Of a stretch of DNA of 64,000 nt, positions 2,838 through 35,271 are shown one piece after another. The notes below the pieces were generated by a model that saw only the letters and a program-made list of their open reading frames with translations, was not told where the DNA came from and made no database searches. A program made the position numbers and the translations under genes. The number at the start of each line of letters is the position of its first letter. Positions within the stretch are counted from its first letter, which is position 1. The DNA lies in the NCBI RefSeq assembly GCF_030867145.1, contig NC_134454.1:69856308-69920307 (forward strand), given 5' to 3'. This DNA comes from Opisthocomus hoazin. Its lineage: Eukaryota; Chordata; Aves; Opisthocomiformes; Opisthocomidae.

Positions 2838-4030
2838 GATCAAAAAGAATTTCAGCCTCTCCCAACTGGAAAGCTGCTCCAGTCCCTTAATCATCTTTGT
2901 GGTCCCTTGCTGAACTCGCTCCACCAAGTCCGTGTCTTTCTTGAACCAGGGAGTGTATAACGGGACACAGTGCTCCACACGTGGCCTCACCAGGGCTGAG
3001 CAGAGGACAAACCAGAACAATCCCCAACTTGCAGGCAACACTCTTCACAACATAGCCCAGAAAGACGTTGCCCTTATTTGTAACGAGGATGCACTGGTGG
3101 ATCATGGTTGGCTTGATATCCGACAGGACCCCCAGGTCCTTCTTTGCACAGCTGCTCACCAGCTAGTCAGCCCCCAGCATGCACTGGTATATGCAGCTAC
3201 TACTCCCCAAAGGCAGGACTTCGCATTTTCCCTTTGCTGAAGTTCATAAGGATCCTCTGTCCAGTTCTCTGTTCTGTCCAGGTTCCTCTGAATGGCAGCA
3301 CAAACATCTAAGGTATCAGCCACTCCTCCCCATTTTCTACCATCTGCAGACCTGCTGAGGGTGAACCCTTCCCCACTGCCCAGAACTGTAACGAAGATGT
3401 TAAATAGTTCAGGCTCCAGTATTGAACCCTTGGGGACAACAACAACAGCTTCCTCCAAATGCCCTTTCTGCCACTGAGACGACAACCCTGACGAGCTGGG
3501 CCTGGCCATTCAGAGTGTTTTTGATAGACCTCATCATTCACTTCCCTGCACACACTTTGTCAGCTTCTCTATGAGGATGTCATGGAAGAAAACATCAAAA
3601 GCCTTACTGAAGTCCAGATACACACCATCCATTGCCTGTCAAGCTAGTCGCCTCACTGTAGAGGGCTATTAGCCTGGTTAAGCATGATTTCCCCTTCATA
3701 AAGCCATTCTGACTGCTCCCACTCACCCTCCTGTCCTTCAAGTGTTCAGAAACACTTTCCAGGATTAGTCGCTGCATCACCTTCCTATGGGTTGAAGTGA
3801 GGCTGACTGGCCTGTAGTTCCCTGGATCCTCCTTGACAACAGGACTGACATTTGCTCTCTCCTAGTGCTCAAGAGCCTCACCCAATGACTGTGAGACCTC
3901 TCAAAGATAATAAAGGAATGGCCTTGCAATGACATCAGCCGGCTCCCTCTACACTCATGGGAGCATTCTGTCAAGTCCCACGTGTATCATATTTAAGTGT
4001 CCCCTAACCTGATCCTTTCTCCACCGAGGA
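2838..4030 (-). mobile_element. CR1 LINE fragment, reverse transcriptase region
   Basis: On the minus strand, conceptual frames give the C-terminal part of a CR1 ORF2 (RPRVEHCV, FKKDTDLVERVQ, GLEQLS) at 2,840-3,040. Reverse-transcriptase segments follow to about 4,025, including the block for accepting the ground rules 'DPGNYRPVSLT' in degenerate form near 3,800. Frameshifts and stops are frequent, so it is dead. The element's 3' UTR and terminal short repeats are missing at the left end, which is unusual for CR1 and suggests later deletion. Confidence 0.85.
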
Positions 4031-7000
4031 TGGAGAAAATAGCACAGCAGAACTTAGGATGACAAGGACATGAGATCAGAGATCGCCCCCACCCAGTTTT
4101 AAGGGCACGTTGTTTAACTTGTCTAACCAGTATTTAGCTCACAGAGGAAAGGCAGTCCCACTGATACTGAAGAAACCCAGCTTCAAGGAGGTCTCGCCAA
4201 TTGTACAAAACTAAAAATGTTTCCCTAGTCCAGAAAGCTGTCTTCAATATTTAAGACAGGTTTCATTACTGTTGGCAAGATACATTCGGTAATACTATTT
4301 GCCTGAACTACCAGAACAAATAAAAACAGCTTTGCTTTTTCATAATGTCCTAGCATGAAGAAACACATAAAAATGGTGACATCACTATAATAAGGAAAAG
4401 GCTGGTCAGTATAATAGTAAAGTAGCCAAAACACATATGGTCTAGAGACTTAAATTACTAAAAGATTGGATGCATTTGGCCATCTTATGGATTTACCGTA
4501 TTAATAAATACATCCAATTTAAACGGAGTTGACCAGAATTTTGAAGGGAAAACACATTTTAAAATAATGCTAAAAATTAGGAAACCAAAACCTCAACAGC
4601 TGAACCCATCTCACCAGAAGCTGGAGACAACGAAAAACAGTTCTGCATTTTCAGCTTCTGCGCTTCTCATGCTCTGTGGATAGCCTATATCATTTTATGG
4701 GAATCCATTTCTGTGACACTGGCTATTTCAGAGACTGGCAGAAGATGATTAAAATAAAAGGCAATAAACACTGAGATAGCTAGGAATACTTCAAGCTTGC
4801 GAGTGGACTAGCAAAGTTATTAAGAGAGAAAAAAAAAAATAAGGAAGCTTCAAGCCACAAATTCCCAAAGTTGGAAGGGAGATACAAATTCAAACTTCTT
4901 GATGCTCCCTGAAGACCAGTTTAGAAATTCAGCCTATCAATTTGCATAAGGAAACCCATGAACAGCATACATACTAAAAGCACACAGATATATGCACATT
5001 CACAGTTTTCAGGAAAGTCTGAAACGAGCATGTATATATACCTAAGTGGCACATACTTATGACGTTTTACCTAATGCCTCAGAGATTATTAATACCGTAA
5101 GTAAAGCACACCACAAACTACATGTGGGAGCCTTAAATCCACCCCTCAGCTACACACTTGTTTGACAACCCACCCTCACCTTGCCAGCACAATTTTTAGT
5201 ATAGTATTTGTAAATGGGGTAAAAAAAGGTTGTAAATCAGAATTAAAGTATACTATAGTGTTGTTGTAACAGTAGAAAAAATAAAAGGTTATATATCATT
5301 CAGTGCCTCCAGTTTGTTGCTACTGCTGCTGCTTTGCTTCCTTGGTAATGAGCTGCAGCAAATACATCAAATCCTTATTAGGTCAGGAAGACAAATGCAG
5401 CATATATATGAATTTCAGAGGAGTCCAATAAATAAGTCTATATGATGTCTTAGAAATGAGTGACCATCTAACAAGAAGCAAAAGGAGGCACACAGTTTTC
5501 TAGGAGGGAATCAAAACTGAATGTTTACTATCAGAGAAATGCCAAAGATGAGCTGTACTGCATTTCACAACCATAAAAAGAGAAAGCTATTTGCCAATGC
5601 CAGTCTTTGTTTTCTAAAGAAGCATCAGGAACGGGCAAAGCTCTCAGTGAAACAGAGCAACTCTGGAATAACCAAGCTACAGAATAAATTGACTCTTCGA
5701 TTCTCCCACCTTGAGCCAGCTTCAAATGTTTATTTCACTGATTTAGCATTAGCCATAGAAAAACCACAAACTTTTGGTCTGAAAAAGGCAAAGAAACTAA
5801 GCATGCCATCAGACTACACAGTCTCTCTTCATAAACAGAAATACTCAGGATCGTTCTCAAACTAAGCAGGCATTTAAAATAACCCACTCCATCAAATGTT
5901 TTTTCCTTCCGCCATAAAACATACTTGCTTTCAAACAAAAAAATTCTTACGATAACAGATCCTTCCCTGTTATCTCTAGTCAAGAGCGGCACTCATTCGA
6001 AGTGAAGTTTGTAAGTGTAAGCTTTAAGCAATATTTCTATTTAAACCCTGTATATCTCTATTTTCATTCCCCTTTCAAAGACACAGCTTATTAGACATCT
6101 TCCTTACTCTGTGATTCATTTAGTTTGAACAGAGCAAAATAAGCTATTTCAAGTCATTTTGCTATCCAAAATTTGCATATGAATAAAACAGAAAATAATA
6201 CTCAAACCCTAACACACGCTTTACAGAGTTTTTGAAAATGGGAGCATTTCTACCGACCACAAATTGCTGCAAAAGCATGACAACTACTTGAACTAATGAT
6301 TATTTATCGCCTTTCTTTTCTCTCCATGTAAATGCACAGCCACAACAACTGAATAAGCTTAAATATTTACAACGAACCTTTTAACGCTTCAAAGGGGAAG
6401 TGTGCATGTCACCCTCCCACGACATTTCAGTGTAGAAGATGGTTTACAGACATCTAATTTTAAAACAAGATTAAGTTGGGGTATGGTAATTCTCTCAAGT
6501 TCTTTGGTTCTCTAAAATTTAATGTCAGACTCACATCTCCAATAAAGCAAAGGGAGCTGAACCTTTCAAGCTCTTCTCACCCACTGGTTCACAACGCATT
6601 AAGAAGTTCTGCACAATTCAACCGAAGCCTCTTCTTCACAGCTGTGCTACTGCAGAGCAAGTAAAATCTCCAGTTTTAGTCTTGCTGCTCCCACCATCCA
6701 ACACAGAACTGTTCTGATGAGTATTCTAGCACTGGGCAATAAGGAAGAATTACAGAAAACATCCATACTTTTTTTTTTTTTCAATTTACCTTCTTGCCCC
6801 ATCCTCTAAAAATGAGAACTAAGGCTTCCTGCAGAACACTGAGGAAGGAGTGAGATCCTCTGTCAAACCTGAACACCTCCGTAAGTTTTATGACATGCCT
6901 AGAAATGTATGAAGTCAAACTGTAACAGTCAATTTTTTGTTAACCATTTAAAGCCAACACATTCTCTAGTACAGCCACGGCCCTAAAACCTAGCTTTACA

Positions 7001-28226: not shown

Positions 28227-28781
28227 TGTTGTCGCAAAAGTGCGAGTTCGTTCCCGGTGTGCAATGACCAGTCTCCCACACTGAGACGAGATACTGATTT
28301 ATGACGAAGTTGTACAAGTTTGGATGCTGGATAAAACTAGCACACCCGATTCACAAAAGACATCAATCTTCATACAATTTCTTATCAATAAGCTTCAGCC
28401 CCTGGGGCAGTCCTGTGCCTGTGGCTGATTACACCATTAGCATAGTACTTAGTCAGCATTTTCACACTGTGCATATTCAGTGAGGAAGGGTCTGGGGGTC
28501 TTTCCCCCAGGGGGTGTCATTCTTAGTATTACAATGTATTATAATGTAGGATAAGTTACTTTCAGACACTACTTTTCAGCCAGAACCAGCCAAAATGACC
28601 TCAGCGCTAACAAGCGGTCTTCTCAAGGTGTCTTCATCTCTTCCACGGAGAGCTCCTTGATTTAGAGGTAACACTAACTCTTCTTCCAAGTGAAAACAAC
28701 AAACTCCCATTTTCTAATTACACAAAGGCCTTTATACAGAACACTAGTTCTTTCAATTACGTTAGGGCCTCTATGACAACA
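28227..28781 (-). repeat. 3' LTR of the provirus (555 bp)
   Basis: On the minus strand it starts TGTTGTCATAG and ends GCGACAACA, giving the expected TG...CA ends with a 7-bp inverted repeat (TGTTGTC/GACAACA). The first 485 bases (plus-strand order) match the other LTR at all but about nine positions. The remaining 70 bases, the start of U3, are much more different. Confidence 0.93.
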
Positions 28782-28794
28782 ATTCCCCCCCTTT
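28782..28794 (-). other. Polypurine tract
   Basis: AAAGGGGGGGAAT on the minus strand directly upstream of the 3' LTR, as required for priming of plus-strand retroviral DNA. Its position fixes the inner edge of the LTR. Confidence 0.85.
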
Positions 28795-28832
28795 GGGACT
28801 TACGTATTACTTTTCTTAATACTGAAGTCCCA

Positions 28833-29285
28833 CTATATTAGCTTACTGATTAGTGATGAACCGCATTTTATACAACATTGTACAATCACAACTACACATA
28901 CTAATGTAAGAATAACTAAAATTCCCATTATGATTAACTTCTTAACCCAAAGTGACAAATCAGGAATCCAGGACATCAGCCACGACCAAATTTCTTGAAA
29001 TCCACATGAGATGTCATCCTTTTGTATTTCATGTCTACCTTCACTGTTTTCTGTATTGTCATAAAATGCACATTCTGAGTCCAAGGATCTTCCTGATTGC
29101 TCAAGGCCATTACTAACTCGATTCCATTTAACAACAACAAGCCCAAGATTAAACAACACATGATGATTGCATAAGTACCTGAAAAGAAAAATTGAAATTA
29201 CTAGAAGTGTTATACTTAGCAGAATAAAACTTTGCTTACATTCAATGCAGAAATAAGGTTCTAAGTCAGTCCATGTACAATTCAT
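28833..29285 (-). pseudogene. Env transmembrane-subunit remnant
   Basis: The last third reads as a retroviral TM end: a tryptophan-rich stretch before the membrane (IWSWLMSWIPDLSLW), a hydrophobic anchor of about 25 residues with paired cysteines (VQCCIKC), and a short tail. Fusion peptide, heptad repeats and disulphide motif are not seen, so the ectodomain is largely missing. In another frame at 28,976-29,161 there is a signal-peptide-like start (MCCLILGLLLLNG), 14 bases after a possible splice acceptor. Described only as a remnant; not functional. Confidence 0.65.
29175..29189 (-). other. Possible viral splice acceptor
   Basis: On the minus strand a pyrimidine tract ends TTTTTCTTTTCAG, followed within about 20 bases by the ATG of a signal-peptide-like frame. 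This is the arrangement of a retroviral env splice acceptor, here placed downstream of the LIN28B segment. Confidence 0.4.
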
Positions 29286-29838
29286 TTACTTCTGTACTCA
29301 ATGAAGCTTCCTGTGGTGATGACCCGCTTGAGCATTCCAAGATCTCTGACCTGCCCTCCTGAGAGTTTATGGGGGCAGTCAGCCACCACCTGCATGACGC
29401 TTTGACAGTAATGGCATTTCTTTGGCTGGTAGGTAGGAAGAGTACATTCTTTAGTGTGGTGGTGAAGGCCTTCACAGTTGTAGCATCTATTTCTCTTTGG
29501 TTTTCTTTTTTGTGCTGTCTTCCCTTTGGGTTGTATTTCACTGCTTCTCCTTCTTTTAGGCTTCTGAATCCTTCCATGTAAATCTCTCTTCCGTGTACGA
29601 AAACATCAGTCAGAGACTCTAAGGGGCTTCCCTCTTGGTTGCTCATGGAGATAAACCTGAATCCCATTCTCACATTGAACAATTTGCAATGGCTGGTTCT
29701 GTGCAAAACCTGGGATTCCTCTTCTTCTTCCTGCTCCAGAAACTTCCCAGGCTCGTCTCCACCTTTACTTGCTGCTTCAGCCATCTTGTCCCACAGGCCC
29801 ACTGCTCCCTGTGCTCTGGTATCCCGGAAGCCCATCAT
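29266..29838 (-). CDS. 190-codon hybrid open frame over the LIN28B insert
   Basis: The longest open frame of the provirus. It starts 18 codons upstream of the LIN28B ATG, in sequence of unknown origin (GFRDTRAQGAVGLWDK), and runs through the cold-shock part. It crosses the knuckle region out of frame, then re-enters the LIN28B frame for the tail and stops just inside the TM-like region. Whether it is translated is unknown. It could be a chance survival, since the element's other frames are broken. Confidence 0.4.
   Translation of the reverse strand: MMGFRDTRAQGAVGLWDKMAEAASKGGDEPGKFLEQEEEEESQVLHRTSHCKLFNVRMGFRFISMSNQEGSPLESLTDVFVHGREIYMEGFRSLKEGEAVKYNPKGRQHKKENQREIDATTVKAFTTTLKNVLFLPTSQRNAITVKASCRWWLTAPINSQEGRSEILECSSGSSPQEASLSTEVNELYMD
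29285..29784 (-). pseudogene. LIN28B: LIN28B-derived cDNA segment inside the provirus
   Basis: From its ATG at 29,784 the minus strand follows LIN28B: an acidic start (MAEAASKGG, PGKFLEQ, EEESQVL), then the cold-shock domain (HCKLFNVRMGFRFISM, EGSPLES, DVFVH, YMEGFRSLKEGEAV). After a deletion and change of frame come the basic linker (KRKPK) and both CCHC knuckles (CYNCEGLHHHTKEC; CHYCQSVMQVVADC, 29,375-29,485). A second deletion returns to the first frame for the C-terminal tail (SSGSSPQEAS), which identifies LIN28B rather than LIN28A. Introns are absent and no poly(A) lies at its end. Changes at key sites (KWFN to KLFN, GFGF to GFRF, the knuckle-2 His to Gln) indicate no normal let-7 binding. 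In the host, LIN28B blocks let-7 maturation. Confidence 0.9.
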
Positions 29839-30361
29839 CCAGTACTTCTTCCGGAATTATTTCAAATTCTGGTTTACTCAATTTACCTTTACATGTATAT
29901 AAATGGAGTTTCCAGTATGGCAGTTACTGGGACACTCACGTTCCATCAAGAACATAATTCTTTCTAAATATTAGTCCAATTTTCTGGGGAAATTTGGTAA
30001 AATGAATCCTGTTCCACCCTTCAGGCTCTATCAAGGGCAAGAGCGACACCATATTGGCTCTCAAATGGAGTTTTCACTCTGCCCCAAGTACAGCTGGCAG
30101 CACAGGGTTTTTTACGATTGTATTCAAATTACTTTCTAATATCTTGGAGAAATTAAAATTAATGATAAAAAAGCTAGTACCTTCTCCTGAAGATTTGGGA
30201 ATTTGAACACAAACTCTTGGGTCAGTGTTGTTCCAAATGTGCATGAGCCCTTGAATTTTTTCCCAGGCTAGATTATGCGAGACCTTTTCACCTTGTTCTC
30301 CGGTACCAGAGGAGAAGAGACAAGTCATACAAAATAGCGAGAACGATAGTAATATATACAT
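29839..30361 (-). pseudogene. Env-like leader region (5' part), broken
   Basis: A 95-codon frame (30,074-30,361) starts with a hydrophobic leader (MYILLSFSLFCMTCLF), as for a secreted or surface protein, and then a segment with N-linked glycosylation potential (WNNTDPRVCV). Stops break it downstream, although coding-like stretches (EGWNRIHFTKFPQKIG) reach the LIN28B junction. Its place after pol suggests the surface subunit of env, but I do not recognise the family with certainty. Confidence 0.5.
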
Positions 30362-30499
30362 ATTAAAAAGATTATAAGGCTAAAAACTGTACAAAAAACC
30401 CCCATAAAACTAGAAATTAATGTTAGTCCTATCTTCATTAACCAAGCTCCCCGCCCTGTGAGTTTTGTAGTATGGACTGCAGCCAGGAACCAGGAGTCC

Positions 30500-32260
30500 C
30501 ACCTTATCTCTAATACTCTTGAATTACTTTTTCCAATAATACTTTAACTGCCTCTCTAGCCTGATTGGTGTGACAGGGAAAGGCTTCAGGACATCTTGTA
30601 AATGTATCTGTTAGACCCAAAAGATACTTATATTGATTACATCATGGTAATTCAGAAAAATCAATTTGCCAGCATTCTCCTGGAAAATTTCCTGCTATTA
30701 CCTCTCCAGGTGGAGCTCTAGGTTCCATCTTTGGATTATTCTTACAACAAATTATGCACTGCTTTTCTACTTGAATTGCATAACTTGTCATTTTAGGTCC
30801 AATTGCACAATGCTTTATGCTAGCATCTAAAGATTCAGCTCCTGTATGACTTCCTTCACAAATTTGCTGCAGTAATTTTCTCATCTTGGGAGCAGTTACC
30901 AGATGTTATTTGTTACTGATGATCCACCATTCTTCAGTGTCTTTTTGATTGCTCCATGAGCATGGATCACTCCCAATGCATATTTAGATAAATATTCACC
31001 CGTTGATCCTCTAATAACTCCAAGGCTCTTGTTAATGCTATTAGTTCAGCCTTTTGAGCAGAACTGTCAGGCGGTAATGGTCCTGATTCCAATACCTTTT
31101 CCAAAGTCACTATTGCATACTCAGATTTACGTTCCTCTTTGATGACAAAACTGCTACCATCAGTATATAATGTATGATCTAGAGTTTCGAGAGGCAGGAT
31201 TTAAAGAATGGGAAATTCTCATACTCACATCATCTTGTTCTAGCAAAGCAGCTTGATACTGCACCATCCAACTAGGGGATAGCCAGTGGTGTCTGCGCTG
31301 TTCCAACACTGCCGTCACTACATGAGGCACATAAACAGTTACTTTTTTGACCCATGGTTAGCTTTCTGGCTTCTTGGATTAATAATACTGTTGTAGTCAA
31401 TGCTTGGAGACAAGCAGCCATCCTTTATCCAATTGTTTGGCTTTTCCAATCTCTGAGCATTTGTGTTAGAACCCCTAATGCAACATGCAGTCTTCCGTGC
31501 ACATATAAAGAAAAGGCTTAGTTTAATCTGGCAGTCCCAAAGCAGGGGCACTTATCAAGGCTCTGTTTATATCATCAAATCTCTTTGGCAATTAGGTGTC
31601 CATTCTAATAGTTCATCTGATCCTTTAACTGTCTCTTACAGAGGTTTAACCATTAAACCAAAATTCAGAATCCACATGTGACACCGACCGGCCATTCCAA
31701 GAAATCCTCTTAACTCTCTTTGTCTTGGGAGGTGAGATTCTGCAAATGGCCTCCTTTTGATCAGGGCTCAATTGCCCTTTCCCCTGAGAAATTTCAAAAC
31801 CCAGCTAAGTCGCTGGGGGCTTTTTGACCAGCTGGGCCTTTTCTGTGACACCCACTATCCTGCTAGGCCCACAAAGTTCAGCAAGCTAATAGAGGCATTA
31901 TTTACACTGCATTTCAGTTTTGGTACCCAATAATATGTCATCGACTCACTGCAAGAGAGTCACTTCTGAGTTTCTTCCCCGCCATTCTTCTAATCCTTTA
32001 GCCAATACGTTACCAAACAGAGTCTGGCTATTTATTAATCCCTGGGCAAGCAGCATCCAGCATAGCTGCATCTTCCTTCCTGTAGCAGGGCTTTCCCATT
32101 CAAATGCAAAACGTTCCTGGCTCCCAGGTTCCAATGGGATGCAAAAGGAAGCATCTTTTAAATCCAGAACTGAAAAATAAACATTACTTGCAGCAATGTT
32201 AGTCAGCAACACGTAAGGATTGGATGCACATCAGCTACAATCTGATTGATAGCTCTTAAA
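30500..32260 (-). pseudogene. Pol remnant: RT, RNase H, partial integrase
   Basis: Read on the minus strand. RT occupies about 31,900-32,260 with QDLRAINQIV, YFSVLDLKDA and FAFEW. Its catalytic YVDD reads stop-VDD (31,937-31,948). RNase H is at about 31,030-31,190 with the DG of LYTDGSSF and the E of AQKAELIAL. The integrase zinc domain is at 30,642-30,884 (H, H, C, C retained in KHCAIGP...QCIICCKN), followed by WQIDFSELP and a short part of the core up to about 30,500. The remainder of integrase is absent. Many frameshifts; dead. Confidence 0.85.
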
Positions 32261-32699
32261 TCTTGATTGGTATTCTCGTAAGAGTTCATACTGTAAAAAT
32301 TTATTTATCAATTCCTCCAGTCCTATCTTAGTTTCTGTTTTCGTAGGATATTGTTTTCACCTTACTGGCTTCGCATCAGGTTTCAGTTCCATCTTAATAG
32401 GATCAGCTTTGGCTCTTCCTGGGATTCCTATTGACCACACCAAAGGAATGACAGCATTGAGAATCTCTTCTGGAATACTGAGATCCTGTTCTTCTTGTTT
32501 CTGTAACAAACAAATTTGAGCCTTCCAGGCATAATTTTTTTTTTTCTTTGGAACATGCAATTGGATTGCATTTTCGGCAAATATTACTTGAGCTTGTAAT
32601 TTATTTAACAGATCTCACCCTAAGAGAGGTACCAGGCACTCTGTATATATAGAAATTCTTGTCTTATAGATTTTTCCAATTGTACATTTCATTGGTGGT

Positions 32700-32880
32700 A
32701 AAAATGGCCTTATTTCCTTTTTCCTGTTACCCCAACAACTGGCATGTTAAATTTACTACAAGGTCCTTTACATGTAGTTACCACAGAATAAGTTGCTCCT
32801 GTGTCAATCAAAAATCTACAGTTTTGTTCTCCAGCTTAGTTGGAACCAGGGGATCTGCTGGGGACACCTTTATAGTCACC
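32700..32880 (-). pseudogene. Retroviral aspartic protease remnant
   Basis: A minus-strand frame contains CRFLIDTGATYSVV. The DTGA at 32,794-32,805 is the active-site loop of retroviral proteases. A stop shortly downstream ends the frame. Confidence 0.75.
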
Positions 32881-34060
32881 TCTCGTCCTCTTCAGTCTGA
32901 ATCCAACTATCTAACATACTCAGGTCTGGAGCTGTACACTGCTTCAGGACTTGCCCTGTTAATTGGGGCACTTTGTCTTCCAATGCGCTTCTTTTCTGGG
33001 GAAGACTACCCCATCTTCCCGCCTTTTCATTCCATCTTTCTGTATCATGGCTTCTAAGTTCTTCTCTGCCTTTTCCATTAAAAACAGCAGCTAGCAAAGA
33101 AGCCTGTAACTTGATACCTTTCTCTCCTAGTAACTTTACACAACCATTTGTAAAATCCAGAGGGATTTTCCTCTGGCTCCTGTTATATTTTATACAATTT
33201 AGACACATTCCCATTCCCTCTGTTTTTTCCCAATACTGGGCTAAACTTCTCATCTCCTATCTCCATGCTCACTTCCTCTTCACCAACAATTGCACCTACT
33301 CTGCACCAGTCTTAACACATTCTTTTCCCTTCCAACAGCCATTACAACAACTATCTTTTGTTTTTCTCTTTCTTTTTGTTGCTTCAAACATATCGTTAGC
33401 ATCAGCCATTGGCAATTTACAGTCCTCTCGACTTTCATGGTCATTTTGTAAATTAAGGAACAAATCAAAACATACCACTTCATCCCACTTTTCCAACTGT
33501 CTACAAAACAGCACCAATTGTAACAGTGTATCGTAATTCACAGTTCCATTTTCAGGCTTTTTCTTGCCATCATCTAGATCATACATCAGTCACCAAGCAT
33601 TACAATATCATAATAATTTTTCTTTAGTTAGGGTATCCCCACCAAACTTTTTCCAATGTTTTAGGATGCATCCAAGGGGGGTATAGGGAGATATCTCACT
33701 CAAAGCCTTAGAACCCATAACACCTTTTCCTAGGAATCTCCTTTAACCTACTATTGCATGCAAATTTACCAGTCTCCTACCAAGGTCTTTCATGAAGCGA
33801 TTTAACGTAAAGCATTCGCGCATGTCAAAACCTATCACCAGTATCAAACTCTATGACTCTGCCTGCTCCGATTGTCACTGTGCAAACATAGGAGAGCACT
33901 CCGCCACGTACTTAAAAGGAGAGCGTCCCAGTGCATAATCAAAATTCCTTTTAATCACATGCAGCTTAGATGGGGCTATCAATCCCACGAGGTACCATTC
34001 AGATCTGAAACCCAACTCAAATACCACAGAATTCCAGAACAGGCACTACCCTTACATTAG
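32876..34060 (-). pseudogene. Gag-region remnant
   Basis: Two open stretches (33,296-33,586 and 32,876-33,253) lie between the 5' leader and the protease, the position of gag. The second has a capsid-like basic, charged composition (PLDFTNGCVKLL, LQASLLAAVFNGKG). I see no intact CCHC box and no clear matrix domain, so the assignment is mainly positional. Confidence 0.55.
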
Positions 34061-34237
34061 TCTTTCATGAATTCGGTATCTTGATTTTCGCTCTGCACCT
34101 TTGAGTCGCTTACCACCCAGTCAGGGGGCAGAGCCGATGGAGTCTCCGACCAGATAGAGTCGGTATGTGCTGGAGACCGTTCAATCCAACTCCCTGCTGG
34201 CTGCAGCAAGTCGATCCGGGCAAGGCTTTTCAGCACA

Positions 34238-34255
34238 GCCCTGTTTGGGTTGCCA
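34238..34255 (-). other. Primer-binding site
   Basis: TGGCAACCCAAACAGGGC on the minus strand, four bases after the 5' LTR. It begins with the TGG required to pair with a tRNA CCA end. By eye it is nearest to lysine-type sites (GAACAGGG-like core), but the match is inexact. Confidence 0.6.
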
Positions 34256-34259
34256 AAAC

Positions 34260-34797
34260 TGTTATCGCAATAGTGCGAGTTCATTCCCTGTGTGCAATGA
34301 CCAGTCTCCCACACTGAGACGAGATACTGATTTATGACGAAGTTGTACAAGTTTGGATGCTAGATAAAACTAGCACACCCGATTCACAAAAGACATCAAT
34401 CTTCATACAATTTCTTATCGATAAGCTTCAGCCCCTGGGGCAGTCCTGTGCCTGTGGCTGATTACACCATTAGCATAGTACTTAGTCAGCATTTTCACAC
34501 TGTGCATGTTCAGTGAGGAAGGGTCTGGGGGTCTATCCCCCAGGGGGTGTCATTCTTAGTATTACAATGTATTATAATGTAGGATAAGTTACTTTCAGAC
34601 ACTACTTTTCAGCCAGAACCAGCCAAAATGACCTCAGCGCTAACAAGCGGTCTTCTCAAGGTGTCTTCATCTCTTCCACAGAGAGCTCCTTGATTTAGAG
34701 GTAACACTAACTCTTCTTCCAAGTGAAAACAACAAACTCCCATTACTCAGATAAAAAATACAGAGTGCTAGCTCTTTCAGTTATGTCAGGGCCCCTA
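34260..34797 (-). repeat. 5' LTR of the provirus
   Basis: Matches the 3' LTR with about nine substitutions over 485 bases (34,260-34,744). The U3 end (34,745-34,797) differs much more and lacks the final TGTTGTCAT-type terminus. It runs directly into the MIER3 CpG island. Transcription from this LTR would run leftward, away from MIER3. Confidence 0.9.
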
Positions 34798-35271
34798 GGA
34801 AGGGGCTCCACACCAAGCCAAGCGCGGGGGGCACCCCGGCCCCGGGGCAGGAGGGCACGCCCCAGCAGCCAGCGCCACGCTGCCCCAGGTGGGAGGCTCC
34901 CGCTGCCCCCCGGGCCCCGGAGGCCTCCCCGGGCGGGGCGGCTGGAGGGCGGCGGCCGGCGCCGCGCCCCCCGGGCCCGGGCGAGGCGGCGGGTGCCGAG
35001 CGCCCTCTCCGGGCGGGGCGGGCCCGCGGCGCGGCGGCCCGGGACGGACGGAGCGCCCTCGCCGGGCGGGGCGGGATGCCGCGGCGCCGCCGGAGGTGGG
35101 GTCCCGGCGCTGCCCCGGCCCCGGCGCCGCCTCCTCCGCCCCAGCTCGGTCCCGCCGGCCCCTCCGCTCCCTCCCCGGCCGGCTCCGGCTGGGGCTCGGC
35201 CGCTGCCATTGGCTTAGCGGCCCCATCCGGGCACTCGGCGCAGCGCTGTTCCTCAGCCCGATCGTCCCAAT

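Follow-up and report, generated by a model that had tools for sequence, protein, structure and literature searches.

An Endogenous Retrovirus of the Hoatzin with an Apparently Captured, Spliced LIN28B mRNA

Introduction

To our knowledge, the capture of host genes by retroviruses is known mostly from tumour isolates. Acute transforming retroviruses (those with src, myc or kit) carry a spliced host growth gene, have lost viral genes and show junctions of the template-switch type, and multi-copy germline examples of host-gene capture are few. Endogenous retroviruses (ERVs) of crocodilians captured KIT-ligand and nectin3, and RSV, Hz4-FeSV and a walleye virus are named as precedents in the same article (PMC4299795). 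We analyzed a stretch of 64,000 nucleotides (nt) from the hoatzin, Opisthocomus hoazin (hereafter the window; contig C41:69,856,308-69,920,307 of a 1.48-Gb genome), where an earlier note, made from the sequence alone, had proposed that an ERV carries a captured complementary DNA (cDNA) of LIN28B. This proposal was upheld by 10 loci, by junctions and an internal deletion shared among them, and by a 3' end of LIN28B that runs into viral sequence.

Contigs are labelled C1-C41, and L numbers denote genome stretches: L019 lies on C14, L022 on C8, L023-L026 on C40 (L026 being the copy at C40:42 Mb) and L027 on C1; L029-L031 are stretches of C2 with host LIN28B, and L050 is C41:77,692,500-77,700,700. 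The genome was searched with 29,262-29,842 of the window, minus strand, and all locus counts are lower bounds.

LIN28B in the Window Provirus

The open reading frame (ORF) at 29,266-29,838 of the minus strand matches the cold-shock domain (CSD) of LIN28B (PDB 4a4i, E 3e-23; Pfam CSD, 2.3e-9), and the second zinc knuckle of LIN28 was matched in another frame of the same region (2.7e-7). The LIN28B match is real and far beyond chance. Aligned with the host cDNA, the segment crosses all three exon joins without an intron, and its homology sets in some 25 nt before the ATG. Two stretches are missing from the window copy, 82 nt of the coding sequence (CDS 247-328) and 116 nt (498-613); the 190-aa ORF is still open, and the 82-nt deletion puts the knuckles out of frame with the CSD. 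The earlier note had placed LIN28B at 29,285-29,784, with CSD, both knuckles and C-terminal tail. Its identity and domains stood, whereas the limits moved to 29,809 and about 29,296, starting in the 5' untranslated region (UTR), and the two deletions have removed the common frame and the native C-terminus.

29296..29809, minus strand: putatively captured LIN28B, part of the 5'UTR and spliced exons 1-4; ATG at 29,784, CSD in frame
29538..29539, minus strand: junction of the 82-nt deletion, in the window copy only, frameshifting (from the alignment)
29366..29367, minus strand: junction of the 116-nt exon-4 deletion, common to every copy holding the stretch; ACT-type microhomology
29266..29838, minus strand: 190-aa ORF spanning the LIN28B segment, with the CSD in frame and the knuckles out of frame

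The segment lies in a gamma-like provirus with two long terminal repeats (LTRs), at 28,227-34,800. The LTR pair, already recognized in the earlier note, was found at 28,227-28,782 and 34,260-34,800 and shows 26 differences over 541 sites (Kimura two-parameter distance, K2P, 0.050). The positions of the pair, of a primer binding site (PBS)-like sequence and of a polypurine tract (PPT)-like sequence place the provirus on the minus strand. The solved structures nearest to its reverse transcriptase (RT) are of the murine leukaemia virus type. Partial matches to the LTR only are many and dispersed across the genome, and Rfam and tRNA scans of the window gave no matches.

34260..34800, minus strand: 5' LTR, direct repeat with 28,227-28,776 (94% gapped identity), first few bases altered
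34238..34255, minus strand: putative PBS-like TGGCAACCCAAACAGGGC, directly after the 5' LTR, read from the sequence
32480..32886, minus strand: broken protease region (tblastn with the L024 protease ORF, two matches, E ~1e-12)
31949..32230, minus strand: RT piece (Pfam RVT_1 1.4e-6, just below the cut-off; 1d1u/1mml 3e-20)
30970..31200, minus strand: RNase H piece (Pfam RNase_H 2.6e-9, above the cut-off)
30,905-30,645, minus strand: integrase zinc domain (Pfam Integrase_H2C2 9e-4, below the cut-off)
30,683-30,448, minus strand: start of the integrase core (tblastn to the L024 integrase core, 1e-27)
29843..30385, minus strand: second, partial gag'/protease'/pol-leader fragment, which travels with LIN28B; gag' is a label by position only
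30,385-30,327; 30,235-29,899; 29,902-29,872; 29,878-29,843, minus strand: blocks of this fragment
29281..29293, minus strand: viral pol-end sequence where LIN28B homology stops, by eye like the L050 pol stop region (~6,745-6,770)
28836..29285, minus strand: ORF with a membrane-spanning stretch, probably an env transmembrane remnant (Pfam GP41 5e-4, below the cut-off; hydrophobic segment in the translation)
28783..28794, minus strand: PPT-like AAAGGGGGGGAA, before the 3' LTR, read from the sequence
28227..28782, minus strand: 3' LTR; the majority of partial LTR matches elsewhere in the genome begin no more than a few bases from 28,782

Host LIN28B and the Other Copies

The host gene lies on C2. 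Its exon limits are splice sites read by eye, and exon 1 was placed by a 37-nt match (E 0.003).

Exon 1, C2: 5'UTR and ATGGCCGAAG, ending at L031 1611 with GT next
Exon 2, C2: L031 662-478
Exon 3, C2: L030 705-521
Exon 4, C2: L029 1272-904

The gap between exons 1 and 2 is about 1 kb, and the remaining two introns are about 42 kb each. Joined, the four exons give a LIN28B of 249 residues. Of 226 residues aligned with the hoatzin record P0003, 224 are the same, and the other 2 sit at the edge of a 20-residue gap in P0003. Among six further bird and turtle records compared with it, five show 5-10 differences in the aligned residues, and the peafowl model P0050 shows 40. P0003 contains the stretches TVLQQP and SETLERS, which are missing from all of seven other records checked. 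On this evidence the hoatzin is the most likely source of the genome.

Intron-free LIN28B was found at 10 loci at least, the window included, or at 9 if the two loci at C40:31 Mb, a near-identical inverted pair, are counted once. The nine other loci (C14, C10, C8, C7, C1 and four on C40) are 78-84% identical to the window segment, C1 being partial. A weaker match outside these loci lies on C17 and may be LIN28A. C40 (50 Mb), which holds 4 of the 10 loci, and C41 (91 Mb) may be the W and Z chromosomes, as judged from their size and order.

All ten proviral rows were aligned with the host cDNA. They start in the LIN28B 5'UTR (GGAGCAG...), are continuous across whichever exon joins they hold and, where readable, end inside exon 4. 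The exon-4 deletion of 116 nt (CDS 498-613) occurs in 9 of the 10 rows (C1 has no alignable sequence there) and in all 8 copies tested; microhomology at a break such as this one is expected of reverse-transcriptase jumps. Neither 3'UTR nor poly(A) follows LIN28B in 9 of the 10 rows, where exon 4 gives way to viral sequence, C1 being unreadable at this point. The absence of intron and poly(A) claimed for the window recurs in the other copies where these are readable. Both flanks of LIN28B can be aligned between the window and C14, C7, C10 and C8, and the virus-LIN28B junctions recur in several proviruses of the same genome. The earlier note had named, as the outcome that would speak against capture, other copies without the segment and a target-site duplication (TSD) with poly(A) around it; the opposite was found, with 10 loci carrying the segment and no poly(A). 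Judged from these alignments, the segment appears to be a retroviral capture of a host mRNA and not a processed pseudogene.

Two Proviral Forms

The LIN28B copies occur in two viral settings. In the C40 form, protease precedes LIN28B in all four C40 loci (L024 protease ORF 3498-4121, Pfam RVP 6.7e-14; protease also in L023, L025, L026 and, on C1, L027), and the integrase core follows it in all four (L024 4917-5318, Pfam rve 2.2e-7, just below the cut-off; L023 1.3e-3; tblastn in L023, L025 and L026). The piece directly after LIN28B in L023 and L024 looks, by eye, like the integrase zinc domain. RT-RNase H sequence is missing between protease and integrase, so that LIN28B stands in the place of RT and RNase H. 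C1 shows the protease side only, with no recognized viral sequence on the 3' side of LIN28B. The C40:31 copy and C1 have a leader, EPVTIT(L/F)S(T/M)TGKHE, that by eye resembles the L050 RT start and reads open in frame with the LIN28B start codon. An in-frame fusion of LIN28B and integrase was considered for this form and rejected: the knuckle frame and the integrase-zinc frame agree in L023 and L024, yet they are separated by a stop, at one and the same position in the two copies.

In the window form (window, C14, C7 and C10), pol reaching into the integrase core is followed by the gag'/pro' fragments, LIN28B and the end of pol; C8 has kept only some of these blocks. A partial 3' LTR was seen in C14, C7 and C10. 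The gag'/pro' blocks of the window lie upstream of LIN28B in copies elsewhere too, before or inside protease (block one in L024, L025 and L027; block two in L023 and L026; block three in L023, L024, L025 and L027; block four in L023-L027).

L050 is a LIN28B-free provirus of the same family, with LTRs 96.9% identical, and aligns with L019 from L050 6,754 onward. Where LIN28B would stand it has integrase, and the same very short stretch separates the end of pol from its 3' LTR; env is therefore not what LIN28B replaced, contrary to the earlier note. What LIN28B replaced appears from these comparisons to be pol sequence, namely RT-RNase H in the C40 form and the rest of integrase in the window form. 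The pol/env-like and env flanks described for the window were correctly seen as viral, but the upstream one is integrase with a gag/pro-type fragment, and the downstream one is the end of pol with a short membrane-spanning ORF.

Some neighbouring sequences were also recorded. Upstream of the LIN28B block, L024 (1826-2738), L023 (1433-2356) and L026 (517-1167) contain RNase H and integrase-core sequence, apparently from a different retroviral lineage. The C40:42 Mb copy holds a 422-aa ORF with an RT domain (L026 2220-3485, E 6e-29), probably an inserted CR1-type long interspersed nuclear element (LINE). C14 and C8 share a 2.5-kb 3' flank that is 97% identical, their proviral parts being about 91% identical (L019 6770-9300, L022 5689-8217), and L051 holds a relative at 82%, upstream of a remnant from the env side.

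State of the Captured Gene

All 8 copies examined are damaged and are now fossils. The hallmarks of the LIN28 family, a CSD and two CCHC knuckles, are present by homology, and in every one of the 8 a motif residue is lost, a stop occurs or the frame is shifted; residues of the start, CSD or knuckle motifs are changed or hit by a stop in all 8. Frameshifting indels precede the 116-nt deletion in the window (its 82-nt deletion), C10, C8, C7 and W42, and stops in the host frame occur in C14, C8, C7, W23, W31a and W42. The shared deletion itself shifts the tail, and the protein ends soon after the second knuckle. C10 has a 210-aa ORF over CSD and knuckles; a 1-nt insertion has put its N-terminus out of the LIN28B frame, and the first cysteine of its second knuckle is missing. 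This ORF equals the JGI metagenome protein P0054 at 210 of 210 residues, so the C10 copy is no assembly artefact; a scan of viral contigs with P0054 found no relative.

C1, which is not homologous past LIN28B position 229, was left out of distances, selection counts and tree, and W31b, a near-duplicate of W31a, out of tree and selection counts. Private changes were neutral (36 of 135 synonymous, 35.6 expected, 8 stops). Among changes shared by 2 to n-2 copies, 26 of 66 were synonymous against 20.5 expected (P 0.09), with no stops; a first test had given P 0.02 before 7 changes in n-1 or n copies, which may be host-side, were removed. Without CpG sites, shared and private changes did not differ (Fisher test, P 0.45), and the codon-position test for selection was not significant. 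The ratio dN/dS, from a method that ignores transition bias, was 0.37-0.63 in five copy-copy pairs and 0.14-0.41 against the host (8 copies), the latter including the constrained branch of the host.

LIN28B may have been a neutral passenger of no benefit to the virus, an explanation of function only, compatible with capture, to which we give not quite an even chance. ERVs spread without helpful cargo, the private changes are neutral, and the synonymous excess in shared changes is not significant. However, no stop was found in the 66 shared changes, the gene was retained when it passed into a second viral context and spread in either form, and what was captured is a growth regulator's RNA-binding core.

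Origin, Order of Events, and Age

The changes are nested. At the 5' junction, about 50 nt are kept in 3 of 10 rows (the C40:31 pair and C1) and lost in 7. At the 3' end, the four C40 rows hold about 40 nt more of LIN28B, while five rows switch to the end of pol; C1 is unreadable. In the eight-copy tree rooted on the host, the window-type copies group with 85% support and C14, C10 and C8 with 100%, support within the C40 group being 47 and 35. Measured against host LIN28B, the three distinct C40 copies lie at distances of 7.4-8.4% and the five of the window type at 12.5-15.1%. The simplest explanation of these nested changes is that LIN28B was captured once, after which deletions arose and the block passed to a second viral backbone.

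We therefore propose that a gamma-like retrovirus of the hoatzin lineage very probably captured LIN28B mRNA by template switching and later moved the block between backbones. The virus would have packaged LIN28B mRNA, and its RT would have switched templates. In the first product, the LIN28B 5'UTR would have followed gag-pro and the start of RT, with exon 4 running into the integrase zinc domain at the far end; RT and RNase H would thereby have been lost, and the virus would have depended on a helper. The 116-nt deletion in exon 4 would then have left the CSD, both zinc knuckles and a short new tail, the native C-terminus being gone. By further recombination, the gag'/pro'/LIN28B block may have entered the integrase gene of a pol-bearing relative, and this second form would also have spread, the window being its most clearly proviral copy. 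A benefit of the cargo to the virus is plausible: LIN28B could favour infected stem or germ cells by blocking let-7, the CSD and both knuckles being its let-7-binding part. That this let-7-binding core, acting in primordial germ or stem cells, itself promoted germline colonization, and that the lineage retained the gene for tens of millions of years while it recombined into a second backbone, is a doubtful extension of the proposal.

If the neutral rate is taken as about 2 per billion years per site, the age of the window copy comes out at roughly 12 million years, a value that LTR conversion could make too low, and the capture would be several times older.

Several observations weigh against this history. 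No TSD is recognizable by eye around the window provirus, whose 5' LTR edge is altered, and the window copy alone has a clear LTR pair, none being seen at the nine other loci. C8 has no protease or integrase match. The RT-start-like leader is out of frame with protease in L024 and C1. The sequence at L024 1826-2738 matches neither the window nor L050, so that the C40 loci look composite. The shared flank of C14 and C8 and the inverted C40:31 pair mean that some loci are not independent integrations. Lastly, selection on the captured gene is not clear from the counts above.

The last but one of these points bears on a second explanation, that a single LIN28B provirus was multiplied by segmental duplication or satellite-like amplification and not by retroviral replication. 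The C40:31 pair is inverted, identical in the LIN28B columns compared (K2P 0.0) and with a few differences outside, and the C40 copies, like C14 and C8, have flanking sequence in common, in their case upstream. But the loci are spread over C41, C14, C10, C8, C7, C40 and C1, and among the flank stretches compared for C7, C14, C10 and C8, only the C14/C8 stretch is held in common. The left flank of the window matches L019 and the C40 loci over apparent repeats only, and its right flank has no match. Moreover, the two junction forms lie in differing viral contexts, and the window LTRs differ by 5.0% while its LIN28B differs by 16.5-22.2% from seven other copies (C1 left out). Multiplication by duplication is quite unlikely.

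A processed pseudogene of LIN28B, made by a LINE, landed in one old ERV and copied along with it, would be intron-free, and an RT-bearing repeat does lie in one C40 locus (L026 2220-3485), but this origin is very unlikely and was rejected, as contradicted by the 3' end inside exon 4, by the lack of 3'UTR, poly(A) and TSD, by viral RT and RNase H that are missing at the site instead of interrupted, and by a 5' end that reaches the 5'UTR with a truncated 3' end, the opposite of the typical LINE product.

Capture by a retrovirus, followed by transfer between backbones, remains our preferred explanation.

Comparison with Known Systems

The LIN28B proviruses probably represent a rare preserved case of a virus capturing a growth-control gene. 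From their nested junctions, the succession of capture, deletion and recombination can be followed stepwise in fossils. LIN28B regulates let-7, stemness and germ cells, and its capture gives a testable link between viral cargo and germline entry. No retrovirus carrying LIN28 was found among the matches listed in a literature search over titles and the starts of abstracts, with most subscription papers outside its range. LIN28 is absent from the main text of PMC4299795, and PMC10363060, by its title and the start of its abstract, describes a LIN28B transcript derived from a transposable element, a case of promoter use and not of capture.

The closest described lineages are crocodilian. CrocERV29 is likewise a multi-copy ERV lineage that took up the host mRNA of a growth-control gene, KIT-ligand (PMC4299795). 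In CrocERV29, however, KIT-ligand lies between pol and env without significant viral loss and with ORFs reported to be under purifying selection (PMC4299795), whereas the hoatzin provirus, with a different gene in a different host, has lost pol sequence and its ORFs are damaged. In CrocERV31, too, viral coding sequence gave way to a host mRNA (nectin3) in a lineage that could still spread through the germline; there nectin3 replaces env (PMC4299795), while in the hoatzin LIN28B appears to replace RT-RNase H or parts of integrase. The viral copies resemble host LIN28B in their CSD and two CCHC knuckles and differ from it in having no introns, a 116-nt deletion, no native C-terminus and a place inside proviruses. 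With acute transforming retroviruses they have in common the spliced growth gene, the viral gene loss and the template-switch-like junctions; unlike those viruses, they are seen here as endogenous fossils only, and their cargo is an RNA-binding protein.
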